Shown one piece after another: positions 635 to 20,538 of a stretch of DNA of 40,893 nucleotides (its first letter is position 1; each line of letters opens with the position of its first letter). The stretch comes from Alphaproteobacteria bacterium (GTDB taxonomy: Bacteria > Pseudomonadota > Alphaproteobacteria > UBA7985 > JAUIBT01): the NCBI GenBank assembly GCA_030428565.1, contig JAUIDR010000028.1:1-40893 (forward strand). Reading direction: 5' to 3'. The notes below the pieces were generated by a model that saw only the letters and a list, made by a program, of their open reading frames with translations, ran no database searches and was not told the DNA's origin. The position numbers and the translations under genes are program-made.

Positions 635-2464
635 TCACTTGCAATAGCTCACGTCCCTAGAACCTACCCGCTCAACTTTTTCCGACAAAACGAAAATATC
701 ATGAAAATTGAAAAATATCTCAATTTCAAAATTTAAGTCATAACCGAACACCTTGCAGCCATTTGCGATGGTCTGACTGACGGAAAAATATAATATGCCT
801 CTATCATCATCTTGATCTTCGAGCTTTATAGAAGTTGGATTACGGTAGAGAATATCCCATCCTGCATCGCCAGGCTTCATTTTCAATCGAATGACATCGT
901 TAACTGGCAAAAAATTATCTAAATAAAATACCTGCGAATTTGGCTTGTAAAGTTTTCGAAAATTGTCAGCTGTTCTGTCAAATTGTTGCAATTCTGGGTC
1001 GGGATTCTGTCGCCAATTTGACAGTAAATAGCGTTGTGAAACAAATTTGTCGAGGCGGAAAAATTTCAACTTGTCAAAATCATCGTATAACTCTCTAGGA
1101 ATGGATTCGGTGTTATTGTTAACTGCCGAGACCCAACTGTCGCCCGGATTAGCAATACAATTAGGCACCACATCTCCATACCTATTTACCAGATCTTCAT
1201 ATTCTTTATCGGTTTCAAAGAGAGCGAGTTCTCTGCGTTTTTCATGACAAATCGATAGTGCATCAAACACCGAAACTCTCGTAGGGATAATCTCGGAATT
1301 ATTCATAAGCTCTAATTCTAAGCGCAATCTCGGAATGTTATCAGCGTATATAGCACTTCCTTGGAACAAATAGATTTTTGGATCTCGTGCCCATCCATTG
1401 TAACATTCCAGCATGTAGAAATCTCCATAATAAGCATACGTCGTTGCTGGCAAACAACTCATTTTTCCCGCAATGGTATGAAAGTCGTCAACACCCAAGA
1501 CAACTCCTATATCGGATAAGTTAACAAACTTGGAGGAATTCACCTCTTCCCTTACTATGCTCGTTTTCCAACGCTCATCTTCATCTAAGTATTCTAGCCA
1601 CCAATTTTTGTAACTGATGAATCCGCTACCATCTACTGTGTAGGATAAGTACCCTCCGTGGAAAAATATATCGTACACATTGACCATGGCATTAGATTTA
1701 TGCCTATTTAAAGTCCCTCTAATTTTTTTTAGTTCTTCATCTAATAATTGATAGGCTATGCTTATCGGAATGAATTTTGCCGCAGCAATCGGATCTGTCG
1801 CGACTGAGAGATAGCGTCTTGCCTGATCAATGTTGTCAATTTTTGTTATCGCATCGTCAATCTTTAAATTAGTGTTGGATATATTTTGATTTGTGATGTT
1901 TACATCTCCCGCTCCAGAATTGCTCACGTCACCTTGTATGATTATACCTTTGTTTTGAGTGGCAGGATCGCTTTCCGTTTTCTGATCGGCAAACAATATC
2001 GATCGCTTTAGACATGCCTGGTCCAAACTTCCACTCTGTCGATCAATCGTCCATGCTTGTATCTCCAGCATATCGGATCCCTCCAGATTGCTAAAATCGG
2101 CATGGATATAGAGGCCTGGTTCGTTTACCGCCTTTAATGAGGTCTTAATCATGTCCACGTATTGACCAGAGCTACCTTGATCCAGTTTGGCTATCAAACC
2201 CAAGCCAGAGACATCAAAGAACGATTGGTCAGGAAACACTTCTTGGATACCTGACAAGACATCCTTCTCAACCTGGTAGCTTGTTCGCGACTTGGGCCCT
2301 TTTCTGAAATAGAAGAGCTTCTTGGCCTCTGTGGCGTTGCAAGATCGGTCTGTTCGGATTGCGTTCAGCGCAGAAAACAGCTCCGTCTGATCTATACTTT
2401 GTGCATAGCTAACGTTGCTCCCCATCCAGAGAATGACGCTGATCAATGCCGTGAGAAATTTCAT
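635..2464 (-). CDS. Secreted protein of unknown function, upstream partner of the caspase-like gene
   Basis: I chose the ATG at 2464 because it starts a clear signal peptide (MKFLTALISVILWMG followed by SNVSYAQ), giving 609 residues. A longer frame reaches 2527 without added signal character. Residues about 20-165 form a cysteine-containing N-terminal domain that I do not recognise. A low-complexity linker follows (IIIQGDVSNSGAGDVNI, then many Asn residues), a style seen before effector modules in bacterial signalling proteins. Near the C-terminal third, a segment with ALSICHEKRRELALFET and later SWVSAVNN faintly recalls a C-type-lectin-like fold; this is a weak resemblance. Base composition is clearly more AT-rich than the backbone. 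The caspase-like gene follows 45 bp downstream. Function is unknown. Confidence 0.75.
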   Translation of the reverse strand: MKFLTALISVILWMGSNVSYAQSIDQTELFSALNAIRTDRSCNATEAKKLFYFRKGPKSRTSYQVEKDVLSGIQEVFPDQSFFDVSGLGLIAKLDQGSSGQYVDMIKTSLKAVNEPGLYIHADFSNLEGSDMLEIQAWTIDRQSGSLDQACLKRSILFADQKTESDPATQNKGIIIQGDVSNSGAGDVNITNQNISNTNLKIDDAITKIDNIDQARRYLSVATDPIAAAKFIPISIAYQLLDEELKKIRGTLNRHKSNAMVNVYDIFFHGGYLSYTVDGSGFISYKNWWLEYLDEDERWKTSIVREEVNSSKFVNLSDIGVVLGVDDFHTIAGKMSCLPATTYAYYGDFYMLECYNGWARDPKIYLFQGSAIYADNIPRLRLELELMNNSEIIPTRVSVFDALSICHEKRRELALFETDKEYEDLVNRYGDVVPNCIANPGDSWVSAVNNNTESIPRELYDDFDKLKFFRLDKFVSQRYLLSNWRQNPDPELQQFDRTADNFRKLYKPNSQVFYLDNFLPVNDVIRLKMKPGDAGWDILYRNPTSIKLEDQDDDRGILYFSVSQTIANGCKVFGYDLNFEIEIFFNFHDIFVLSEKVERVGSRDVSYCK

Positions 2465-3020
2465 GCTGAGGTCTGCTTGTCGGTACGAGACACGAGTTAG
2501 ACTGCCATGTTTTTGTGTTGGTTCCAAGCCCCAGGCGGATTAACAAGCAGTTATGGAAGTCATCAGTGGACAGTGCTACTCATAGACGTTGGCATGCTGT
2601 ACTGGTGGCGGCCTGTCACAAGCCAATAAATGTGTTGGTTTGGTTGCGAATGTTTTGCGACGCCCATCAAGATGGCCGTAAGGGCTCTGTGGCATTTGAG
2701 CCTGCATTTTGGCCCTCTTTGCCGCTTGTACGATGCCCTCTCCGAGTCCCTCAGGAAATCAAGGAGGGGATTTTGGCTAAAGCCGTTGGTTTTCCTGCTG
2801 TCAACGGAAACAACGCCCTGATCGGACTCCATAGCGCCCTCAGCAGCACATCTGGCTGTAGGGGGGCATCATTCAAGTTCGGGCATGGCTTGACCTGCGT
2901 CTGACTAACCGCCTTGAGTTTTTGTGTTGCTCAACAACGCTCAAAGGCGCTTTGCACCCGTCTTAGTTCCATGGACAAAGCCTGCTCTCGTCGCTTTGCT
3001 ACCCCGCTTACCGTTTTTGG
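2465..3020. other. No confident gene
   Basis: Short frames exist on both strands (for example 2515-2904 plus and 2563-2832 minus), but none has a convincing ribosome binding site, domain or codon pattern. The stretch may hold degraded gene remnants at the end of the AlpA operon. Confidence 0.4.
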
Positions 3021-3263
3021 CTATAGGGTCCGTCTTGGAACAGCATGTCCTCCAAGCTGGCCTTTCAAATGGTCCCATGCTCTGATCAGTCGGCCCGTTG
3101 CGATGTGGTTGGCCAATCCCGTTGCCAGAAACGATTTATCTGTGCTGTTCGGGCCAAAGAGGGCTGATATCTCTTGTAAAGCACCAAAGCCCCCTAACGC
3201 GACCATATGGTTGAGACTTAAACTATTGATTTCAATTGCTTTATTGAGATTAAGTATCCTCAT
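3021..3263 (-). CDS. Small hypothetical protein coupled to the AlpA-like gene
   Basis: This 80-residue frame starts inside the stop of the AlpA-like gene (ATGA overlap at 3260-3263), which suggests translational coupling. The product has a hydrophobic N-terminal half with the segment MVALGGFGALQEISALFG and a basic end. I do not recognise a family. In many islands the gene after alpA is a small accessory or replication-related protein, but nothing here shows that. The overlap is the main support, and the C-terminal end could be truncated because the region beyond it shows no coding sense. Confidence 0.45.
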   Translation of the reverse strand: MRILNLNKAIEINSLSLNHMVALGGFGALQEISALFGPNSTDKSFLATGLANHIATGRLIRAWDHLKGQLGGHAVPRRTL

Positions 3264-3460
3264 GCATCGACCTCATTCTTGGATGCACTGACACGGTTCA
3301 AGATCCATTGGTCAATGTCAGCTGCATACCAGCCAATTGCACGAGCACCAAGCTGAACGCTCCTGGGAAACGATTTATCGGCCATTTTGTTATAGATCGT
3401 CGAACGAGAAAGGCCTGTACGTTCTTTGACAATTGGTAAGCGAATGATTTTGTGTTCCAT
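3260..3460 (-). CDS. AlpA-family phage/island transcriptional regulator
   Basis: This 66-residue protein has the compact winged-helix/MerR-like layout of AlpA regulators. IIRLPIVKERTGLSRSTIYNKMADKSFPRSVQLGARAIGWYAADIDQWI contains the helix-turn-helix (about residues 9-30), the FP-x-S-V-x-LG wing and the closing W-x-x-x-D-I-x-x-W signature, split here by Ala-Ala. A strong ribosome binding site (GAAGGGAG, 7 bases before ATG) supports the start at 3460. AlpA proteins activate excision or integration functions in P4-like elements. The gene is transcribed away from the polymerase-like gene, with a 488-bp AT-rich control region between them. It marks this segment as a mobile element. Confidence 0.9.
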   Translation of the reverse strand: MEHKIIRLPIVKERTGLSRSTIYNKMADKSFPRSVQLGARAIGWYAADIDQWILNRVSASKNEVDA

Positions 3461-3948
3461 GGATTAACTCCCTTCAAAAGTTTCTAAATGAGGCTTCCAG
3501 ATGCGTGGAAGCGTTGATGTCGATAAAGGTAAGGCATGAACAAAACGGTTAATAGACCCATTCTTGAAAAACCTTGGAGCGGTTTCCTTTAAGCGATTAA
3601 TCGCGCCCTAAGTCATTGATTTACAGAGAAACGTTGAAAAAAATTAAAATAAAATGCGGGATTTTCCCTCAAAAATCGCTTGGAAAACCATCGATACGAG
3701 CTTGATATTTTTATTTCTATTTTTGCCTTGTGTGTTCGATGTCTTGGCATTCCAAGATGGAGCTCTGATAATGGCCGCCAACATTAACCGTGTCTCCAGC
3801 AAATCTTATCCACATGTCACAAGACCATTACCCGATTCGCTACCTAAAATTAGTAGTGATAAATTTCCCAGTAATGGTATATAGATATCCTATATTAAGA
3901 GAATTAATTATGATAAATTAAATATGTGCATTTATAAGGAATTAATTA
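3461..3948. promoter_or_regulatory. Divergent control region between the AlpA-like and polymerase-like genes
   Basis: This 488-bp AT-rich stretch separates two divergent genes. It must carry the promoters of both, and it could also hold an origin or excision sites, although I see no iteron array. An open frame at 3654-3884 (plus) with one hydrophobic segment could be a small gene but lacks a good ribosome binding site. A ribosome binding site (AAGGA, 3936-3940) lies 8 bases before the ATG at 3949. Confidence 0.4.
3879..3895. promoter_or_regulatory. Inverted repeat before the polymerase-like gene
   Basis: ATATAG (3879-3884) and CTATAT (3890-3895) are perfect 6-bp arms around a 5-bp spacer, 54 bp before the start codon. 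The right arm runs into TATATT, a plausible -10 box, so this could be an operator over the promoter. Its regulator is unknown; the divergent AlpA-like protein is a natural candidate (inferred). Confidence 0.35.
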
Positions 3949-5373
3949 ATGAAAGAAATTCAAGATCCGCACCATTCGATTAAATTTAATACAAACATCT
4001 GGTCTGAAGCCGCCACGGTAAATCAGCTCGTTGAAGAAATTTGGAGCAATGTCATTGGTAACTTTGCTGACAGGTTCGTTCATGTTGGGCAACGGCAACC
4101 AAACACCTCCAGCAAAGACCAATTGAAAGTTATTTTGCTCAACCTAGTTTATGCATATCAAATTGACCCAAACATATGTGTTGGAGTTGGTTTGCGTAAC
4201 TCGGATTACTCGCCCTCTTGCAGATACAACGTTCTTGATTTATCAATCAAGTTGATTGAGCTGGTTCATGCGTTACGCGACCTAGGTTATCTTGACTGGC
4301 ATGATCATGTCTTTATCGAAATGAACTCGAAAGAAAACCAACGCACTCGCATTAGGGCATCTGATAGGCTTTTGGATGTGTTTAAGAAATATCCATTGGG
4401 TTTGGAGGAAATTGGTCTCGCCTACAAGCAGGAATGCATTGAGCTGAGAACCAAGATTTATGAAAGCGCCCTGGGTGTTAACTTGAAATCCAAACCAATC
4501 ACATATGAGGATACAGAACATACTAGAGCAATGCGAAAGGTCGTTGTAGCCTATAATGAGCTACTGAACGCCAATTTCATTGATGTCTCGATCTATCCCG
4601 ATCAGAAATACGGCCACAGTCTGCCCAATGGCCAGGTCATTAACATACCAATCGTTCAGGGGCAGCACTTCGTTAGGCGTATCTTCTCAAGAGGCAGCTT
4701 TGATTTTGGTGGGCGTTTCTATGGGGGCTTCTGGCAGCAAATACCAAAGGAAGACAGACCCTTCATTCGCATCAATGGTGAAGAAACCGTTGAGTTGGAT
4801 TTCAACGCTCTTCATCCACGATTGCTAGCTGCTGAGAAGGGCCTGACCATTGAGGGTGACCCCTACGATCTTGGAGTTGATCTGTTGCCAGAGCATCTGA
4901 TGTATCTGCAACGAAAGTATGTGAAGAAACTTCTGTTGGTCGCCATTAATGCCAAGAACCGTAACGAGGCCTATCATGCCTTGTTGCAATCTTTGCCAGA
5001 GGAGCTCTCAACCCACTACTCCAAGGACATGCTGAGGGAAGGCTTGAAAGCGATACGGCAACGACACCCTTTTATGGCCGAAACCTTGTGCTCTGATGCT
5101 GGTATCCGCTTGATGAAAACCGACTCAGACATCGTTGAACATGTCCTGAAGCATTTTATAGCCCTGGAAACCCCTGTGCTGCCCGTACACGACAGTTTCA
5201 TCGTACAGGCAAGCAAGGGGGCAATATTAGAGTATGCCATGGGAGAGGCTTCTAAGGCCGTTACAGGGGTGGAGTTGCCGTTTGAGCAAGCGCCAAAGGA
5301 AACAGGGTGGAGAAGTTGCCACCAAAAGCAATGTATGGCATATGATCCTACAAGTTGTGGGGAATTCGTATAG
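3949..5373 (+). CDS. Mobile-element protein with family-A polymerase-like palm motifs
   Basis: This 474-residue protein carries three motifs in the order and spacing of the single-subunit polymerase superfamily (family A DNA polymerases and T7-like RNA polymerases). The motif-A-like segment is VELDFNALHPRLL with Asp284. The motif-B-like helix is KKLLLVAINAKN (about 326-337), rich in Lys and ending in Asn. The motif-C-like segment is LPVHDSFIV with His414-Asp415. A GGRFYGGFWQ segment near 254 recalls the RGR-x-Y element before motif A in phage RNA polymerases. The first 200 residues match nothing I know, and no 3'-5' exonuclease motifs are visible. The start has a good ribosome binding site. 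It is probably the replication or primer-making protein of the island (inferred). Its 3' part is duplicated at 6892-7040. Confidence 0.65.
   Translation: MKEIQDPHHSIKFNTNIWSEAATVNQLVEEIWSNVIGNFADRFVHVGQRQPNTSSKDQLKVILLNLVYAYQIDPNICVGVGLRNSDYSPSCRYNVLDLSIKLIELVHALRDLGYLDWHDHVFIEMNSKENQRTRIRASDRLLDVFKKYPLGLEEIGLAYKQECIELRTKIYESALGVNLKSKPITYEDTEHTRAMRKVVVAYNELLNANFIDVSIYPDQKYGHSLPNGQVINIPIVQGQHFVRRIFSRGSFDFGGRFYGGFWQQIPKEDRPFIRINGEETVELDFNALHPRLLAAEKGLTIEGDPYDLGVDLLPEHLMYLQRKYVKKLLLVAINAKNRNEAYHALLQSLPEELSTHYSKDMLREGLKAIRQRHPFMAETLCSDAGIRLMKTDSDIVEHVLKHFIALETPVLPVHDSFIVQASKGAILEYAMGEASKAVTGVELPFEQAPKETGWRSCHQKQCMAYDPTSCGEFV
5125..5274 (+). repeat. Left copy of the 150-bp duplication (within the polymerase-like gene)
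   Basis: This stretch encodes the SDIVEHVLKHFIALE and VHDSFIV region of the polymerase-like gene. It recurs at 6892-7040. The first 80 bases differ at one position by eye; the rest is more diverged but clearly collinear. The two copies bracket the 5381-6884 gene pair. Confidence 0.9.
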
Positions 5374-5380
5374 CACTGCC

Positions 5381-6172
5381 ATGGATTTTTACATAGATCG
5401 ATCAATCCTAGCCAAACTTAGCAAAGGGTCGTTCTATTACCCCGCATGCGGACAAGACACCGAAGAGCCTATAAAGCTGTTTGGGCACCTTGTTTCAGAA
5501 TTTTGGTTTTGTGATCTTTGCTACGATCAACACTTAGACCTTCCGCCAGTGTTCCCTCAAAGCACGCACAAGATCATACGATCAGATAGATATGGAGAGG
5601 TCGGCGCTCAACTGCGATGGGTTCCTTTCCAATTCACTTGTGCTTGGGGACGTAGCCACTGGGCCCCTTACAGATACCTGGAGCCAAGCTATCTAAGTGA
5701 GGTGTATTTAGGCCCTGACGGCAACACTACCTCGGTGGTAAGGAGGCGAGGCTTTGGACAGTTGGCAATTGAAAAAGATTTCCACGATGATTCAATCAGC
5801 ATCTTCATGCACAGAGGCGATTCTATTGGGGAAGGTGGTTCAGGCATGTGGCTAATCGACAACCGAGAAGCTAGATATGAGCCAATATCGAACATATTCG
5901 AAAAGTTAGAATCGAAATTGACAGAAAATGCCCTTATTATTTCAGACGGTTCAAACACCCGTGTCAAATTTTTGAATCAATATAACTGGCAAGGCATTTC
6001 GGGGAGGCAAGCATACAAATCTCTAAAAAACAAAAGATATGAATTTGGAAATAGAATTTGGCGTTGTATTGGGTGGCTAAGCCGCAGGTATGGGCCAACA
6101 CTGGTTTGGAATGTTGTTAGAAAGGAAAAAGGCGAATATGCTGGATCACGTTACAGTCACGAAATTTGTTAG
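5381..6172 (+). CDS. Unknown protein, first gene of a two-gene cargo
   Basis: I place the start at ATG 5381, 8 bp after the stop of the polymerase-like gene. A longer frame from 5234 would overlap that gene's conserved end. The 263-residue product has no signal peptide or membrane segment. Visible marks are FYYPACGQD near residue 18, FWFCDLCYDQ at 41-50, a run of aromatic residues (CAWGRSHWAPYRYLEP), HRGDSIGEGGSGMW and ISDGSNTRVKF. The FYYPACGQD opening resembles a group of uncharacterised bacterial proteins, but I cannot name a family. The next gene overlaps its end by 35 bp, so they are probably co-expressed. Their position in a swapped-in cargo slot makes an accessory role such as defence plausible, but nothing in the sequence proves it. 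Confidence 0.7.
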   Translation: MDFYIDRSILAKLSKGSFYYPACGQDTEEPIKLFGHLVSEFWFCDLCYDQHLDLPPVFPQSTHKIIRSDRYGEVGAQLRWVPFQFTCAWGRSHWAPYRYLEPSYLSEVYLGPDGNTTSVVRRRGFGQLAIEKDFHDDSISIFMHRGDSIGEGGSGMWLIDNREARYEPISNIFEKLESKLTENALIISDGSNTRVKFLNQYNWQGISGRQAYKSLKNKRYEFGNRIWRCIGWLSRRYGPTLVWNVVRKEKGEYAGSRYSHEIC

Positions 6173-6884
6173 CTTCTTGAAAAAGAATTTTGTAGTGGAC
6201 AAAAGTCCAAGTGAATTGAAGGCGAGCTATAGATGGGCCATAAGCGATAAAGCAAAGAATCAGCTTCAAGAATTATTGTCTGGAAGTTGCTCTAAAACTT
6301 CGATCGATGAATTTAATGATTTTTGTGAAAAACACATGTGGTATGATGCAAATGTAAAACTAAGAAAATTATTTTCAGAATATTTCTCTGCTAATGAAAT
6401 GGATCTGCCTGTCGCGAAATGGATTGCACAAGCTTGGGGAAGAATAAATGGAAACCACGAGCAAAGATTGTCAGAGTATCTTAAAAGGTACTTTTCAACC
6501 AACAGCGATGTGGATTATCCGCAACAAGGTATAGCAACATATTCCAAATTGCTTGCCTTTCGGCACCCTGATAAATTCGCAATTTTTGATGCTCGTGTGG
6601 CAGCTTCGATCAACGCAATTCTGATTATGACGGATGGAGACAGAAAACCAGACAGAATTTTTCCGCTATTGCCTACGCAAAATGGGCAAGTACGAAACTT
6701 TAACACTCAATTACAACAAATGCAAATTCCGCCGATTGATGATTTTTATCAAGCATATTTGAATTTGCTTAAGCAGGCGGCAGAGGTTTTAGATACAGAA
6801 AATGGCTTGGCTCTTTTAGACGTGGAGATGTTGTTGTTTGGCAATGCAGAGCGGCTAGTAGAGGAAGCCAAATTAGCCATTTAA
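6138..6884 (+). CDS. OGG-like (HhH-GPD-type) unknown protein, second cargo gene
   Basis: The ATG at 6138 follows an AAAGGA-containing ribosome binding site and gives 248 residues; it overlaps the previous gene by 35 bp. The central stretch YSKLLAFRHP (135-144) followed by FAIFDARVAASINA (147-160) resembles the core of uncharacterised bacterial proteins annotated as 8-oxoguanine-glycosylase-like. In that group a 'pd-x-f-x-I-y-D-x-R-V' signature marks a helical DNA-binding fold. I see no clear catalytic lysine, so enzyme activity is doubtful. The rest is charged and helical. With the 5381-6172 gene it forms a tight pair bracketed by the duplicated polymerase fragment. DNA sensing or processing is a reasonable guess, but the family match is from memory only. 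Confidence 0.7.
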   Translation: MLDHVTVTKFVSFLKKNFVVDKSPSELKASYRWAISDKAKNQLQELLSGSCSKTSIDEFNDFCEKHMWYDANVKLRKLFSEYFSANEMDLPVAKWIAQAWGRINGNHEQRLSEYLKRYFSTNSDVDYPQQGIATYSKLLAFRHPDKFAIFDARVAASINAILIMTDGDRKPDRIFPLLPTQNGQVRNFNTQLQQMQIPPIDDFYQAYLNLLKQAAEVLDTENGLALLDVEMLLFGNAERLVEEAKLAI

Positions 6885-6891
6885 CCAAGAA

Positions 6892-7040
6892 TCAGACATC
6901 GTTGAACATGTCCTGAAGCATTTTATAGCCCTGGAAACCCCTGTGCTGCTCGTACACGACAGTTTTATCTTACAGGCACATGGGGCCTAATGTTAAAAGA
7001 CGCCATGATAGAGGCTTCAAAGGCCGTTACAGGGGTGAAG
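6892..7040 (+). pseudogene. Right copy of the duplication: fragment of a polymerase-like gene
   Basis: Beginning 8 bases after the stop of the second cargo gene, this 149-bp fragment repeats 5125-5274. It still encodes SDIVEHVLKHFIALE and VLLVHDSFILQA in frame, then stops (TAA), so it has no start and no complete domain. It is either the displaced end of the original gene or the relic of a second related element. Confidence 0.85.
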
Positions 7041-7253
7041 CAATCTAACACCAGCAAAAACTGAAATAACCGTTTGCATAAGTGTAACAATACAGGATCG
7101 GCCGCGAGAAATTGCACTAGCAAGCAATGAGTGGTATGTTTTCGATTGACGGAACCTTTGTGTGTGCCGCCATTAAAACTCAGGTAGTTAGGAGTCAAAA
7201 CCGTGCACCACTCAGAGTGAGTTATCAAAATTGCCTTAATTGCTTTCGCTTTT

Positions 7254-7634
7254 TTGGCATTGTTTACGAAGCCAATCTTTGCTGATTCGTGGCGTGCGGT
7301 GCTGGAAGACAACATTACGAAATTTTCCGAATGGGGGAAGCAAAAAGAGAAGTCGTTAGAGATGGGGATCTACGGAAGGTCAAAGTTTCTGGTAGATCAA
7401 GAAACGGGCTTGACATCGGAACCTGTATCAAATGCGCATTATGATATACGCGAGTTAATGCTGCCAAGAGATTCTCAAAATTCATTAAAAGTATTCAGTA
7501 AATCTAACAAAGCGTGGAGCACACATTTCCTAACAGTGGCAACTTGGCAAGAGTCCAGCTTAAAACCATTCGTCCTATTGACAGATGGTCTCGTCTATGA
7601 GGGCATGTGCCTGTTTAAGCAATTAGCTCGTTAA
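7254..7634 (+). CDS. Small secreted protein with an unclear start
   Basis: The coding frame ends at 7634 and yields 126 residues from a TTG at 7254. The frame is open further upstream to 7221, right after a TGA, and that extension reads VIKIALIAFAFLALF, a typical signal peptide followed by FADSW. The true start therefore seems to lie at 7221, where the codon is GTT, or at the neighbouring ATC. No ATG or GTG is available. Either a rare start codon is used or the start has mutated and the gene is silent. The mature part has no family I recognise. It faces the small secreted protein gene at 7727-8074, which lies convergently. Confidence 0.5.
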   Translation: MALFTKPIFADSWRAVLEDNITKFSEWGKQKEKSLEMGIYGRSKFLVDQETGLTSEPVSNAHYDIRELMLPRDSQNSLKVFSKSNKAWSTHFLTVATWQESSLKPFVLLTDGLVYEGMCLFKQLAR

Positions 7635-7726
7635 GGCGAAGCAATATATTTGACATAAAAATGCGAATGCACCTTGCTACAACGCAATCGAAAAAAGGTA
7701 AGTGAAAATTGTACAACGTTCGTAAA

Positions 7727-8074
7727 TCAATATGACGAACGTGGTCCCATTGAAGTAGGTTCACACCTAAAATTTTGACCCGAATACTTTAAATTTGCCC
7801 AATTTGCTATGTCTTGGCACGCGGAGAAGGTGTTGCCCCCAAAGCCGAATATAAATCCGATAGGGTCAGTTTGATTTAGTCCGAAAGTGGATTTTGTGAG
7901 GGTCACGGGTTGGCCTCCGATGTAATAATTTTCGTTATCGAACCCCAAAAAAATAGTAGTATCTGAATTGCGATAATAGTAAAATTGCAGTTTTTTATCA
8001 GCTAGTGCATATCCTACCAACCCGAAAAAAAAGGCTGTTAATCCAACACAGAGTGGCAATATTATCCTACACAT
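7727..8074 (-). CDS. Small secreted hypothetical protein
   Basis: The 115-residue product starts with a signal peptide or membrane anchor (IILPLCVGLTAFFFGLVGYA, about residues 4-23). It continues with a beta-rich part (KKLQFYYYRNSD, FLGFDNENYYIGG) and two cysteines in the mature region. The ribosome binding site AAAGGAGC is 10 bases before ATG. I do not recognise a family. The gene lies downstream of the H-NS-like gene on the same strand with a short gap, so the two may share a transcript. Confidence 0.6.
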   Translation of the reverse strand: MCRIILPLCVGLTAFFFGLVGYALADKKLQFYYYRNSDTTIFLGFDNENYYIGGQPVTLTKSTFGLNQTDPIGFIFGFGGNTFSACQDIANWANLKYSGQNFRCEPTSMGPRSSY

Positions 8075-8098
8075 TGCTAACTTTGCTCCTTTGAAAAC

Positions 8099-8479
8099 TT
8101 ATTGCAGGGCACTTATCAACAGTTCATCTCTTTTGGCAACGTGCTCAGGGTTTGTTTTGTCAAAATTATCTGTGCCAATATACGCTAACACCCATTTTGG
8201 CGTCATTCCCTGGCCCGACCATTTGATATCAGGATCTGTTGGGTGCTGGTATTTTGGTTGCACTTTTTTCCGAGTCTTGACCGCCTTCTCGCCTGATCCA
8301 TTTCCACCAAGTTTTGCAAGGATATCGGAAATTTCGATACCGTTCTTTTCAGCCAGTTCACGTACTTGAGCAACGACATCGATCAAGGCTTGTTCGCGTT
8401 GTTGATCAATTAACTCTTGCGTCTTTGTTTGTAAAGCCAAAAGCTCTGCATATGACATTTTTTCTAAAGCAGCTGACAT
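8099..8479 (-). CDS. H-NS/HvrA-family nucleoid protein
   Basis: I chose ATG 8479 (ribosome binding site GGAGAG); the frame extends 21 bases further without support. The 126-residue protein has an N-terminal coiled-coil oligomerisation part (MSYAELLALQTKTQELID and onward, about 8-55). A linker rich in Gly and Lys follows. The C-terminal DNA-binding domain is KYQHPTDPDIKWSGQGMTPKWV (about 76-97), where W-S-G-x-G-x-x-P-x-W is the H-NS signature; the usual Arg of the AT-hook-like loop is replaced by Met-Thr. Such proteins bind AT-rich foreign DNA and silence it. On an AT-rich island it may silence the island itself or adjust the host's own silencer (inferred). Confidence 0.9.
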   Translation of the reverse strand: MSAALEKMSYAELLALQTKTQELIDQQREQALIDVVAQVRELAEKNGIEISDILAKLGGNGSGEKAVKTRKKVQPKYQHPTDPDIKWSGQGMTPKWVLAYIGTDNFDKTNPEHVAKRDELLISALQ

Positions 8480-8629
8480 AAACTCTCCATGGATGATCAA
8501 TGGCCATATAAGTCTTTTTGAGGGAGGCAGTCAATCATTGACTAACAAGCTAACTGAAAGTGTTGCTTCTAAGGCCAGCAGCAGAATTGCATAAGTACTA
8601 GAGTTACTGGCTGCAATACGAGGAAACCT

Positions 8630-8872
8630 ATGAAAATTAAGTCGTTTAAACAATTTTTGGCTGAACACAATAGCACGTTAGATGGCAATGATGAAAACTC
8701 ATTAAACCAACGCCTTAAACGTATTGATCAAGAGATGCTAGCTTTGAAGCCCAGGCCTGAGGGTGCATTTAATTCGAAGCAAAAAGCCAACGCAAAGGCC
8801 AGGCGATCGTCCCTCTTATCAAAATTAGGTCAGATCCACTATCGTTATAAGAACAAAGACCATCAAGAATAG
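8630..8872 (+). CDS. Small basic hypothetical protein
   Basis: This 80-residue protein starts after a good ribosome binding site (GAGG about 9 bases before ATG). It is highly charged, with a helical N-terminus (MKIKSFKQFLAEHN), a possible coiled coil (NQRLKRIDQEMLALK) and a basic C-terminal half (KQKANAKARRSSLLSK). The composition suggests nucleic-acid or structural binding, but no family is recognisable. It stands alone between two minus-strand genes. Confidence 0.6.
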   Translation: MKIKSFKQFLAEHNSTLDGNDENSLNQRLKRIDQEMLALKPRPEGAFNSKQKANAKARRSSLLSKLGQIHYRYKNKDHQE

Positions 8873-8895
8873 ACGGCGGACAATTTGATAGACCA

Positions 8896-9273
8896 CTACC
8901 AGTCTTCGGCAAGGAAACGTCCTGAAGACCAACCTCGTACAGTCCATCCGTAACGGTCAGTCCACTCCACATAGTGCCAAATGGCTCTGCGGTAATTCAT
9001 GAGCTGGTCCATGGTCATGCAACGGCTTTGACGTGTACATCCGCAAAGCCCTGGGTATTGCTCTCCAAGATTTCTGACGCCTCTTGCATTCGGCGGCATC
9101 TCCCCAACAATCTTGTATTTTGTACCAGGGCCAGAGCGAATGTTGAGCGTATCCCAGGAGGAAACACCTACTACGCGAAAATAGTCAGGCCCATCGGCAC
9201 ATGCCCAGGTCGCACTGCTCGGTAGAAACACGGTCAAAATCAACGCAATCAACAATCGAGCCATTAGCTTCAT
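8896..9273 (-). CDS. Secreted SH3b-domain protein
   Basis: The 125-residue product has a signal peptide (MARLLIALILTVFLPSSATW, about residues 4-23). It is followed by one bacterial SH3 domain: DTLNIRSGPGTKYKIVGEMPPNA is the classic LNIRSGPG first strand and loop, and the domain ends with WTDRYGWTVRGWSSGRFLA. Four cysteines in the middle (C-x-D, CGC, RC) probably form disulfides in the periplasm. SH3b domains usually bind peptidoglycan or proteins at the cell envelope. The start may be the ATG at 9273 or the one at 9264; neither has a strong ribosome binding site. It lies just downstream of the unknown gene at 9316-10191. Confidence 0.75.
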   Translation of the reverse strand: MKLMARLLIALILTVFLPSSATWACADGPDYFRVVGVSSWDTLNIRSGPGTKYKIVGEMPPNARGVRNLGEQYPGLCGCTRQSRCMTMDQLMNYRRAIWHYVEWTDRYGWTVRGWSSGRFLAEDW

Positions 9274-9315
9274 CCTGTTTCGTACGATAGAAGCTTATCC
9301 CTAACCCGTCTTGAG

Positions 9316-10191
9316 TCAAGATTCAGTTCGTTTGGGAGGTCTGCCTGGGGTAGAAAGCGAAGGTTGTTGCGTGGTCACCTGATCCCATACCGATTTCCAA
9401 TCTTTTCCTCTGTCGGCCATTCTTGGGGCAAAGAGTCGGCGGTATTCTTTGTTGCTGCGTTTGATGCCTGTCGATTTGAAATCTTCCAGAATGGCGGTGA
9501 TCGCTGTTTCAACGGTTGTCTTTTGATCAACGACACGCTCCAGCAGCTTGTCATGGAGACGCTTTTCAATGAAGATGTGGCGGTGGTAAAAATCTCCGTA
9601 AGTTTGGCGAATTGTGCTTGGGAGCGTTTGATCGCCGATTAGGCTGTTCGAAGTCGGTTGGTGTTTGGCAGCCAAGGTGCCCGTACCAAGACGACCATCA
9701 AAGACATCGAGGTGCAGGCTGTCATCAGGGGTCACGATGGGACTCCGTTCGTAGTGCCTCCATGGATCTAAAAACTCAGGCAGGTAAGCGGGCTGTTTTA
9801 GATTTCGATCCTTTTGCCAACACGGAACGAAGCTAAGCTTCTCGGAAATCCTGTGAACCAAATCGCCGCCATGGAGGATACCACCTCTTAGGATTTCTTT
9901 GTGAAGTGGCTTCAGCTCGCCAGCTATGGATTCAACCGACATAACTGGAAAAGTCCCAAGGTTGTTCGGCATTCCCAACCCGAGCCACACGTATAGGCTG
10001 GTGAGCGTCCGCAAATCCTTCTCTATCAGAGCGTCTTGAGCGTCGGCTTTGTGATCCTTTGGTAAACTGCTTAAGGAGAGCCCAAGCGCCTCGTACCGAT
10101 CCTTAATGGCAAGGTAGACGGCTGTTGTGTGATCTTGAAGGCGAATGTGATTGTCGTGTTGGAGCATAATGCGTCTGATAGTCGATGACAC
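9316..10191 (-). CDS. Unknown protein at the tRNA-Arg end of the island
   Basis: The 291-residue frame starts with GTG 10191; ATG 10167 is an alternative. It has no signal peptide and no membrane segment. Helical segments dominate, including LIEKDLRTLTSLYVWLGLG, DKLLERVVDQKTTVETAI and a basic Pro-rich tail (STPGRPPKRTES). I searched by eye for the R...H-x-x-R...Y triad of tyrosine integrases and for serine-recombinase motifs and found none. Its place, 176 bp from the 3' end of tRNA-Arg, is where an island integrase usually sits, so either the integrase is elsewhere or lost, or this gene has another role at the element's end. Function is unknown. Confidence 0.7.
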   Translation of the reverse strand: MSSTIRRIMLQHDNHIRLQDHTTAVYLAIKDRYEALGLSLSSLPKDHKADAQDALIEKDLRTLTSLYVWLGLGMPNNLGTFPVMSVESIAGELKPLHKEILRGGILHGGDLVHRISEKLSFVPCWQKDRNLKQPAYLPEFLDPWRHYERSPIVTPDDSLHLDVFDGRLGTGTLAAKHQPTSNSLIGDQTLPSTIRQTYGDFYHRHIFIEKRLHDKLLERVVDQKTTVETAITAILEDFKSTGIKRSNKEYRRLFAPRMADRGKDWKSVWDQVTTQQPSLSTPGRPPKRTES

Positions 10192-10291
10192 TTCTGCTAT
10201 AAAGCAACATGGATCGTCGTGTTTGCCAACCCCATCGTTTCATAGTCTGATCCAAAACCATCTAGCAACGTCTCAGGAGGGCTTTAACCAA

Positions 10292-10314
10292 TATGTCTCT
10301 AGTTATGTCTCTAG
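10292..10314. repeat. Short tandem repeat at the island end
   Basis: The 11-12 base unit TATGTCTCTAGT occurs twice back to back (10292-10303 and 10304-10314), 54 bp from the tRNA-Arg 3' end. It could be a recombinase arm site or part of the attachment region, but this is only positional evidence. Confidence 0.5.
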
Positions 10315-10367
10315 CATTTGCGGCTAAAACATAAAATATTGATTATAAAGCACAAAATGGTTATGTA

Positions 10368-10444
10368 TGGTGTCCCCGACAGGAGTCGAACCTGTGGCCT
10401 ACCGCTTAGGAGGCGGTCGCTCTATCCTACTGAGCTACGGGGAC
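10368..10444 (-). tRNA. tRNA-Arg (anticodon CCT)
   Basis: A complete 77-base cloverleaf is readable on the minus strand. It has a 7-bp acceptor stem (GTCCCCG with CGGGGAC), D arm, anticodon stem ACCGC/GCGGT around the loop CTCCTAA (anticodon CCT), TTCGA T loop, and an encoded CCA end. tRNA-Arg genes are frequent integration sites. The AT-rich island abuts its 3' end. Confidence 0.95.
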
Positions 10445-17925: not shown

Positions 17926-20538
17926 ATGAGCGACAAAGCCGAAGCGCTGGAGAACCCAGAGGACTTGATCGCAGAATCGGACACCGGAGCGCGGGTGCCA
18001 AAGGGCGCCATCTCGGCGAGTGTGCTCTGGGTCGTGCCCTTGATCTGGTCGTTGTTTCAGCTCTGGATCGCGTCGCCGCTGCCCTTTGAATGGGGCATTT
18101 TCGTCTGGAACGATACCCAGACCCGCGCCATCCACCTGGCTTTTGCGGTCTTCCTGGCTTTCACCGCTTATCCGACTTTGAAGTCCAGTCCGCGCCACTA
18201 TATCCCGATACAAGACTGGGCGATGGCGCTGATCGCAGCAGGGGCAGCGGCCTATATCTGGATCTTCTATGCTGGCGTCGCCTCACGCGCGGGTGCGCCC
18301 AACACGACCGACGTGGCGGTTGCTGCTGTGGGTATCGTCTTGCTGTTAGAAGCCGCGCGCCGCTCGCTGGGTTTCCCGCTGATGGCGGTGGCGCTGTTCT
18401 TCTTGGCCTACGTCTTTTTCGGCGCTTGGGATGGCTTGCCCGATATGATCCGCTGGAAGGGTGCCTCGCTGGAAAAGGCCATGAGCCATATGTGGCTGAC
18501 CACCGAAGGCGTGTTCGGTGTGGCGCTGGGCGTTTCGTCGGGCTTCGTATTTCTCTTCGTCCTATTTGGCGCGCTGCTCAATCAGGCGGGCGCGGGCAAC
18601 TACTTCGTTCAAATCGCCTTTTCATTGCTGGGCCATATGCGCGGCGGACCGGCCAAGGCCGCGGTGGTCTCCTCGGCCATGACGGGCCTGATTTCGGGCT
18701 CTTCCATTGCCAACGTGGTTACAACAGGCACCTTTACTATTCCCTTGATGAAGCGCGTTGGCTTTGCGCCTGAAAAGGCGGGCGCGGTCGAGGTCTCCTC
18801 TTCGGTCAACGGGGTCTTGACCCCGCCGGTCATGGGTGCCGTGGCCTTCTTGATGACCGAATATGTCGGCATTTCCTATGTCGAGGTGGTGAAGACCGCC
18901 ATCGTTCCGGCGCTGATCTCCTATATCGCGCTGGTCTATATCGTGCACTTGGAAGCGCTGAAGCACGACATGCGCGGCCTGGAAAAGCCCGAGCCAATGG
19001 CCCCCGCTAAGGTCCGCCTCATCCGAACCGGCATCACCATTTCTTCGCTGCTGATCTTATCATACGCGGTCTATTGGTTGATCCAAGGCTTCAAGGTCTG
19101 GTTCGGCGATGCCTCGGGTATGCCGATCTTGGCCTTCCTTTTCGGCTCTTACGTCTTCTTGGTCTTTTTGTCGGCGCGTAAGCCTGAATTGGAAATGGAC
19201 GACCCCAATCAGCCGGTGGTCAAGCTGCCACGTTTTTCTGACGTAGCAGGCACCGGTCTGCACTACGTCGTGCCGATTATCGTTCTGATCTGGTTCTTGA
19301 TTGTTGAGTGGAAGTCGCCCGCTTTCTCGGCTTTTTGGGCGACCTGTTTCCTAATCGTCGTGCTGGTGACGCAAAAGCCGCTCAAAGCCATTTTTCGTGG
19401 CCAGGCGCTGGGCTTCTTTTTGGCGGTGCGCGAGGGCATCGCTGACTTGGCCGACGGTCTGATCACTGGGGCTCGCAATATGATCGGCCTGGCGGCGGCC
19501 ATGGGCGTAGCGGGCATCATTGTCGGCGCGGTGACACTGACGGGCATCGGTCAGGTCATGGCGGAGTTCGTCGAGTTCCTTTCGGGTGGCAACCTGTTGG
19601 CCATGCTGTTCTTCGTCGCGCTGATCTCGATCATTCTGGGCATGGGCCTGCCGACGACCGCCAACTACATCGTCGTATCATCGCTGATGGCGGGCGTGGT
19701 CGTGGAGCTGGGCGCGCAAGCCGGGCTGATCGTACCGCTGGTGGCCGTCCACATGTTCGTGTTCTACTATGGCATCATGGCGGACGTGACGCCGCCGGTG
19801 GGGCTGGCCTCCTTTGCGGCGGCGGCCATATCGGGCGCTGATCCGCTCAAGACCGGCGTCACGGCTTTCTTCTATTCCCTGCGCACGGCGTTGCTGCCAT
19901 TCTTGTTCATCTTCAACACCGACTTGTTGTTGATTGATGTCGGGCCGGTCAAAGCCATATTCGTGTTCTTCATAGCCCTGGCGGCCATGTTGGTCTTTGC
20001 GGCCGGGACCATGGGCTATTTTATCGCCCGCAATCGGATATGGGAGAGCCTGGCACTGGTCTTGATCGCGCTACTATTGTTCCGTCCGGGGCTGGTGCTG
20101 GACTATGTACAGCCACCCTTCGAACAGGTGGCACCGGCGCAAGTCTTCGACGTGGCGCAGGGCGCCCAGAGCGGCGACAGCCTACGCATCAAGCTGGAAG
20201 GCGAGAATATAGACGGTGATTTTGTCTCCTCCACCTTCGTGTTGCCGTTGGGCGATAAAGGCCCAGAAGGCTTCGAGCGCCTCGCCAATTCTGCGGGCCT
20301 GGAGTTGATCGAAAGTGAGGGCAAAATTATCGTGGACTCGCTGAAATTCGGAGGCCCAGCCGAGCAAGCAGGGGTCGATTTTGATTGGCAAGTGACCGCG
20401 ATTGAGCGGCCCGCCGAGCGCATGCCCAAGGAAGTCATCTACATTCCGGCCTTGGCTTTGTTGCTGTTGATTATCTATGTGCAGCGCCGACGCTTGCCCC
20501 AGCAAGCTCCGGCAGGAGCCCGAAAGGAGGCCGCATGA
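17926..20538 (+). CDS. TRAP transporter permease, fused 4TM/12TM (DctQM-type) with C-terminal DUF3394-like domain
   Basis: The 870-residue membrane protein joins the small and large TRAP permease subunits, the usual arrangement for TAXI systems. Hydrophobic segments begin at about residue 27 (SVLWVVPLIWSLFQLWIA). The large-subunit part contains the conserved GLISGSSIANVVTTGTFTIPLMK and EVSSSVNGVLTPPVMGA loops, and the second half-repeat GMGLPTTANYIVVSS with MADVTPPVGLASFAAAAIS. The last 150 residues form a soluble, DUF3394-like part with a final membrane helix (VIYIPALALLLLIIYV). It imports the ligand of the upstream binding protein, driven by a sodium or proton gradient. Its stop overlaps the start of the stress-protein gene (ATGA). 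Confidence 0.95.
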   Translation: MSDKAEALENPEDLIAESDTGARVPKGAISASVLWVVPLIWSLFQLWIASPLPFEWGIFVWNDTQTRAIHLAFAVFLAFTAYPTLKSSPRHYIPIQDWAMALIAAGAAAYIWIFYAGVASRAGAPNTTDVAVAAVGIVLLLEAARRSLGFPLMAVALFFLAYVFFGAWDGLPDMIRWKGASLEKAMSHMWLTTEGVFGVALGVSSGFVFLFVLFGALLNQAGAGNYFVQIAFSLLGHMRGGPAKAAVVSSAMTGLISGSSIANVVTTGTFTIPLMKRVGFAPEKAGAVEVSSSVNGVLTPPVMGAVAFLMTEYVGISYVEVVKTAIVPALISYIALVYIVHLEALKHDMRGLEKPEPMAPAKVRLIRTGITISSLLILSYAVYWLIQGFKVWFGDASGMPILAFLFGSYVFLVFLSARKPELEMDDPNQPVVKLPRFSDVAGTGLHYVVPIIVLIWFLIVEWKSPAFSAFWATCFLIVVLVTQKPLKAIFRGQALGFFLAVREGIADLADGLITGARNMIGLAAAMGVAGIIVGAVTLTGIGQVMAEFVEFLSGGNLLAMLFFVALISIILGMGLPTTANYIVVSSLMAGVVVELGAQAGLIVPLVAVHMFVFYYGIMADVTPPVGLASFAAAAISGADPLKTGVTAFFYSLRTALLPFLFIFNTDLLLIDVGPVKAIFVFFIALAAMLVFAAGTMGYFIARNRIWESLALVLIALLLFRPGLVLDYVQPPFEQVAPAQVFDVAQGAQSGDSLRIKLEGENIDGDFVSSTFVLPLGDKGPEGFERLANSAGLELIESEGKIIVDSLKFGGPAEQAGVDFDWQVTAIERPAERMPKEVIYIPALALLLLIIYVQRRRLPQQAPAGARKEAA

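Follow-up and report, generated by a model that had tools for sequence, protein, structure and literature searches.

The window analysed here, a stretch of 40,893 nt, is the start of a contig from an alphaproteobacterial metagenome-assembled genome (MAG), and its left ~10.4 kb has a G+C content of 38–48% vs 61% beyond. In this left part a polymerase-like gene is followed by a pair of overlapping genes, which we call the cargo, by a second copy of the polymerase-like gene's own 3′ part and, further on, by a convergent H-NS-like gene and a tRNA gene. The features referred to in the text are the following:

3260–3460 (-), AlpA-like regulator, 66 aa, intact; nearly identical to an AlpA-like ORF of the congener G001
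3949–5373 (+), family-A-polymerase-like gene (PHROG 4756), so named from its PHROG match, predicted fold and invariant residues; the conserved core gene preceding the slot
5122–5274 (+), first repeat copy, the 3′ end of the conserved part of the polymerase gene, with motif C (VHDSF)
5275–5373 (+), C-terminal tail of the polymerase gene, specific to this allele; neither the G001 tail nor that of the relic is related to it
5277–8114 (no strand), variable slot, with no homology to the collinear position of G001 except in the relic
5381–6172 (+), cargo gene 1, 263 aa, with no family match
6138–6884 (+), cargo gene 2, 248 aa, weakly OGG-like (PF21790, under the curated cutoff)
6889–7064 (+), putative relic of another polymerase allele's 3′ end, homologous over 6889–7040 and frameshifted, with its own tail and an in-frame stop at 7062–7064
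7065–8098 (no strand), rest of the slot behind the relic, with ORFs 7254–7634 (+) and 7727–8074 (-) of no confident family
8099–8500 (-), H-NS-like gene (PF00816, E 7.7e-9), the convergent core gene closing the slot; its last codons differ in G001
10368–10444 (-), tRNA-Arg(CCT), the attachment gene of the island; G001 homology stops at its outer edge

Island setting

The same island was found at the same tRNA in a congener (G001, also an alphaproteobacterial MAG; JAUIBT010000014.1, locus L006), where the tRNA-Arg gene lies at 18615–18691 and the 17-nt 3′ end of the tRNA is repeated at L006 1335–1351, beside an integrase-like ORF (1490–2761). As this tRNA 3′ end recurs at the far end beside the integrase-like ORF, the G001 island is complete, with a length of about 17 kb; our window shows the tRNA end of the island only, since the contig starts at base 1. 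With the repeat and the integrase seen in G001, the region is a tRNA-Arg(CCT)-targeted integrative island, with a core made up of the integrase (seen in G001), the AlpA-like regulator, the polymerase-like gene and the H-NS-like gene.

Several other features of these islands were observed. Adjoining the AlpA-like gene is an ORF (3021–3263, -) that, as we read its sequence, resembles the N-terminus of an AAA/RepA-type ATPase and is apparently truncated; it is likely a broken replication gene. Nearer the contig start lies a gene (635–2527, -) whose ~600-aa product is predicted to be secreted and is conserved in its N-terminal half but variable in its C-terminal half; the gene has relatives, all on the (-) strand, in the G001 island (L006 2779–4614, 4890–6644 and 6919–8739) and at another G001 locus (L118 5291–7171). 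The three copies in the G001 island are in tandem, with caspase-like gene fragments between them, and this region appears to be a further site within the island at which modules are exchanged. Positions 1–126 of the window, where the window's caspase-like ORF breaks, recur at 98–100% at the ends of other contigs of the same genome (C74, C40, C47 and C79) and also near a contig end in G001 (C39); they probably stem from the edge of an IS or from a k-mer end shared in the assembly. Lastly, L118 (G001:C36:104000-111395) and L107 9578–9722 (G001:C29) seem to be the ends of a second related island in G001, the middle of which is unassembled; these ends are 87–92% and 99% identical to the window, closer than the G001 tRNA-Arg island is.

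The polymerase-like gene

The product of the 3949–5373 gene matched PHROG 4756 (E 1.3e-49), a family without known function, and had no above-cutoff match in Pfam, NCBIfam or PADLOC. Its AlphaFold model (mean pLDDT 78) resembles the palm of family A DNA polymerases and mitochondrial RNA polymerases (Foldseek E 5e-6), and was aligned with a family A polymerase over 248 residues (VIA-align Z 14.1, rmsd 4.2). Residues D284 (motif A), K326 (motif B) and H414-D415-S416 (motif C) were invariant in 14 and in 28 sequences. By its predicted palm fold and catalytic residues (Asp in motifs A and C, Lys in motif B) the protein would thus be a polymerase of the family A / T7-RNAP superfamily. Its conserved domain ends near residue 442. 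Proteins of this kind are encoded in 27 of the 385 genomes of the class; a search of viral contigs identified no close relatives, only distant ones.

The repeat and the two genes that it brackets

The original prediction described a 150-bp segment (5125–5274) that returns at 6892–7040, almost identical over its first 80 bases, with exactly two overlapping genes in between. The repeat is present, with its true starts at 5122 and 6889: the 3′ part of the polymerase-like gene (5122–5274) recurs at 6889–7040 in the same orientation, 1.77 kb away. A repeat search within the window returned it as two blocks, one of 90 nt at 96% identity (5122–5211 / 6889–6978) and one of 52 nt at 83% (5223–5274 / 6989–7040), and a global alignment, which supplies the exact identity that had been called for, gave 136 identical of 151 aligned columns plus 3 gap nt. 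The first 80 nt of the copies are 96% identical, and the two genes between them are as foreseen, overlapping by 35 nt and occupying the whole interval; copy 2 starts 4 nt past the stop of cargo gene 2. In the whole 3.5 Mb genome a DNA search located the repeat in these two places only (E 1.7e-49 for copy 2), and in a protein search copy 2 was the sole other genome match to the polymerase-like protein (E 2.2e-10); the match is far beyond chance. The 18-mer AAGGCCGTTACAGGGGTG at the repeat end occurs 2 times in the window vs 0.01 expected.

Cargo gene 1 begins 7 nt behind the polymerase stop, and the cargo is probably co-transcribed with the polymerase gene. One distant homologue of cargo gene 1 (34% identity) was found, in genome G655, with neighbours that we read as including an AAA-type ATPase and an NYN-like ORF; a single-sequence structure of the cargo gene 1 product had a pLDDT of 35 and was set aside. 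As an HhH-GPD / OGG-like glycosylase, the product of cargo gene 2 scored 21.2 bits against PF21790, under the curated cutoff of 27. Two of its residues, K137 and D151, do not vary among five relatives and may correspond to the Lys/Asp pair of a glycosylase. No PADLOC model for known anti-phage defence matched the three genes (3949–5370, 5381–6169 and 6138–6881), and searches of phages and viral contigs found no cargo homologues. DNA glycosylases are known as antiphage enzymes, e.g., Brig1 (PMC11078745) and Brig3, the latter described as weakly homologous to uracil DNA glycosylases (PMC13160076). That the cargo is a DNA-repair-like or defence pair, with an HhH-GPD/OGG-like gene 2, is only a guess on our part.

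A variable slot behind the polymerase-like gene

Comparison with the G001 island gave two collinear blocks, window 1866–5276 with L006 8144–11599 (77% DNA identity) and window 8115–10444 with L006 16362–18691 (86%). Between them, window 5277–8114 and L006 11600–16361 had no DNA match but the relic, and a translated comparison of the slot contents also returned nothing; the G001 slot holds a 1455-aa secreted autotransporter-like ORF (a name taken from its sequence rather than from a search of families). The slot contents are thus wholly different between the two congeners while both flanks are collinear. The slot extends from the end of the polymerase conserved domain, on its left, to the 3′ end of the convergent H-NS-like gene, and accessory genes look to have been exchanged between these two gene ends; the rest of the slot behind the relic (7065–8098) is probably older cargo. 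The prediction that this position is a hotspot accordingly agrees with its only close comparison, that with the one relative G001 (n=1 pair), in which unrelated cargo lies at exactly the same point.

The hotspot prediction was also borne out by flank turnover in an independent clade. The polymerase proteins of genomes G311, G414, G407 and G417 are 81–91% identical and their genes match as DNA (that of G417 is cut by a contig end), whereas the neighbouring DNA does not match: between G311 and the other three, homology is lost some 90 nt upstream of the start codon on one side and inside the last codons on the other, and G414, G407 and G417 share about 170 nt more downstream before they diverge. 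The polymerase stop of G311 is also where an accessory gene starts, whose homologue in the island of another genome, G392, lies about 2.7 kb further along. Because the flanks differ and the homologue of the G311 cargo is displaced in G392, cargo appears to have been shuffled behind the polymerase gene in this lineage too. The G392 island (L138 4993–18279) is complete and compact, lying between two tRNA-Gly copies with an integrase, a polymerase-like gene and several predicted secreted-protein genes, and may be a minimal form of the island class.

Two further observations were made. In G414 a 111-nt inverted repeat (92%; L135 6135–6245 / 9900–10010) brackets a solitary polymerase gene and two ordinary-looking genes. 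At four loci (L135 7794–7961, L136 4409–4576, L137 and L139) a small membrane-protein-like ORF overlaps the polymerase stop (ATGA) and has dispersed copies in the same islands; these copies could serve as recombination homology for cargo exchange.

We also considered candidates for a second case of a repeat like that in the window and rejected both: the direct repeat seen in G338 (L045) was read as an IS insertion, given the adjacent transposase-like ORF with its 29-nt inverted ends, and the duplicated polymerase of G115 is a whole-gene copy. In addition, no clean trailing duplicate of the polymerase 3′ end was present in 22 class-level flanking regions, or in G001. Relics of the gene do occur elsewhere, and as these include 3′ relics without a matching local parent (G404, G447 and G441), a 5′ relic (G392:C9) and a decayed whole gene (G417:C12), other routes of decay exist for this gene and relics alone are not specific.

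The relic as the probable end of another allele

Within 6889–7040 motif C is the sole polymerase motif present. The homology of all three copies (the intact gene, the relic and G001) ends at the same GGGGTG point, beyond which their tails are unrelated; the relic continues past it for eight codons in frame to its own stop (7062–7064), despite the frameshift upstream. A three-way alignment showed the repeat to be a mosaic. In columns 1–90 there were 12 differences in G001 only vs 4 in a single window copy only, and in columns 91–153 these counts were 6 vs 15 (Fisher p 0.008 between the two parts). The two window copies differ from each other at 4/90 positions in the first part vs 17/63 in the last (p 9e-5), while the change between the intact gene and G001 (13/90 vs 13/63) is not significant (p 0.38). 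Over the last 63 nt the three copies are about equally distant, with six changes found only in the intact gene, at which the relic equals G001. This supports, without proving, a recent common history of the two window copies in the first ~90 nt only, with the copies beyond that point as different as those of separate species; the pattern is one of 153 columns, and rate variation could explain part of it, constraint being weaker over the last 63 nt.

The expectation that copy 2 would be a duplicate of copy 1 therefore does not hold in its simple form. Given the mosaic pattern, the shared homology end and the relic's own tail and stop, none of which a local copy predicts, our preferred reading of the relic is that it is a frameshifted 3′ end from a different polymerase allele, which was displaced on the arrival of new cargo behind the polymerase gene. 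The mosaic, the tail and the stop likewise favour the idea that a piece of the old end was left behind; trailing fragments, which the prediction foresaw behind some homologues, are not regular companions of the gene, as none attributable to such a process was seen in the 22 class-level loci.

Origin of the arrangement

We consider it probable that the region is a cargo slot of the tRNA-Arg-targeted island in which recombination at the polymerase gene end left a displaced allele end as a relic. DNA of a related island, comprising the two-gene cargo and the 3′ end of a polymerase gene complete with its tail, would have entered and recombined within the ~90-nt near-identical stretch, and its far end would have been joined just upstream of the resident 3′ end, at 6888/6889, probably illegitimately; the resident end, pushed 1.8 kb downstream, would have decayed since. 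Inside the cargo we found no recombinase or site to account for the right-hand join. A transposon origin of the cargo was rejected, as no inverted repeats bound 5275–6888, and so was an integron-like or site-specific signature, since the 18-nt block found where homology ends is confined to gene ends and absent at the right edge of the slot.

A deletion fusing two tandem islands is an alternative step that would give the same result, and it can be taken as an explanation by itself: with two islands in tandem at the tRNA, a deletion would have brought the cargo end of one up against the polymerase 3′ end of the next, so that the slot holds cargo A, relic B and cargo B with no insertion at all. 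Such a fusion would account for the presence of two alleles, for a relic that starts abruptly behind the cargo gene 2 stop and for the leftover DNA at 7065–8098, and the second related island end in G001 (C36) indicates that islands of this type coexist in one genome; however, nothing of a second tRNA 3′ end is seen in the 6885–8114 interval, and the fusion alone leaves the restriction of near-identity to the first 90 nt unexplained, making it an unlikely origin.

Rather unlikely, too, is a simple local duplication, in which 152 nt from the 3′ end of the gene itself were copied to 6889, e.g., by slippage or illegitimate recombination, and decayed afterwards, the position of the cargo being incidental. 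The shared orientation, the 1.77 kb spacing and the close match of the first 80 nt are what it would produce, and the relic-only changes are distributed over codon positions as in a pseudogene. Over their last 63 nt, nevertheless, the copies resemble each other no more than they resemble the sister species, the duplication would need to end exactly at the limit of G001 homology, and the relic has a tail and an in-frame stop of its own.

Phages integrate into icd or tRNA genes and restore the gene end with their own copy. Integration of a small element in this manner, with 5122–5274 and 6889–7040 as attachment sites, fits the restored gene end, the displaced original end, the sharp left edge and the 18-nt block, invariant in all three copies, but we regard it as very improbable, as the 1.6 kb between the copies encode no recombinase and the slot runs past the relic to 8114, where G001 has different DNA and no second site.

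Relation to known systems

Cargo exchange at the polymerase gene end, as we favour it, has a parallel in the orphan cdiA-CT/cdiI and rhs-CT modules, where a new 3′ module is joined to a conserved gene and the old end is displaced downstream (PMC4927057). Here also a 3′ fragment homologous to the upstream gene, apparently from another allele (on a small alignment), is kept behind the present module. Unlike in those systems, the gene encodes no toxin but is a polymerase-like core gene, what is exchanged is the cargo downstream together with a tail of ~33 codons and not a toxic domain with immunity, and no functional module was identified in the relic. The slot likewise resembles the hotspots of P4-like satellites and P2, which carry unrelated small gene sets, some antiviral, at a fixed site between core genes of an integrative element (PMC9122126); it differs in belonging to an alphaproteobacterial tRNA-Arg island in which psu or cos features were not seen, in lying between polymerase-like and H-NS-like genes, and in that no known defence family was matched. 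A small chromosomal island with an integrase, AlpA and a nucleic-acid polymerase as its core also recalls the PICMI satellite (int, alpA and prim (DUF3987/DUF5906), downstream of fis; PMC10803314). In our island, however, the polymerase is family-A-like (PHROG 4756) and not DUF3987/DUF5906, the site is tRNA-Arg and not fis, and the island bears no signs of phage packaging. The case belongs to the broad kind of a variable slot in an integrative island, and is not CDI, P4 or PICMI.

For now the case is valuable chiefly as a clean and checkable instance of cargo being exchanged at the end of a gene, and does not establish a new principle. More speculatively, and with considerable doubt, we suggest that the 3′ end of the PHROG 4756 polymerase gene could be a general docking point for accessory genes, and that small tRNA-targeted islands with an integrase and a polymerase would form a large class not yet described, in which short allelic homology at the gene end serves to swap cargo into the polymerase operon. 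If this were true, it would point to this uncharacterised family-A-like polymerase as a core gene of such islands, and the end of its gene would mark where to seek accessory genes in alphaproteobacterial islands, with relic ends as the record of past swaps.
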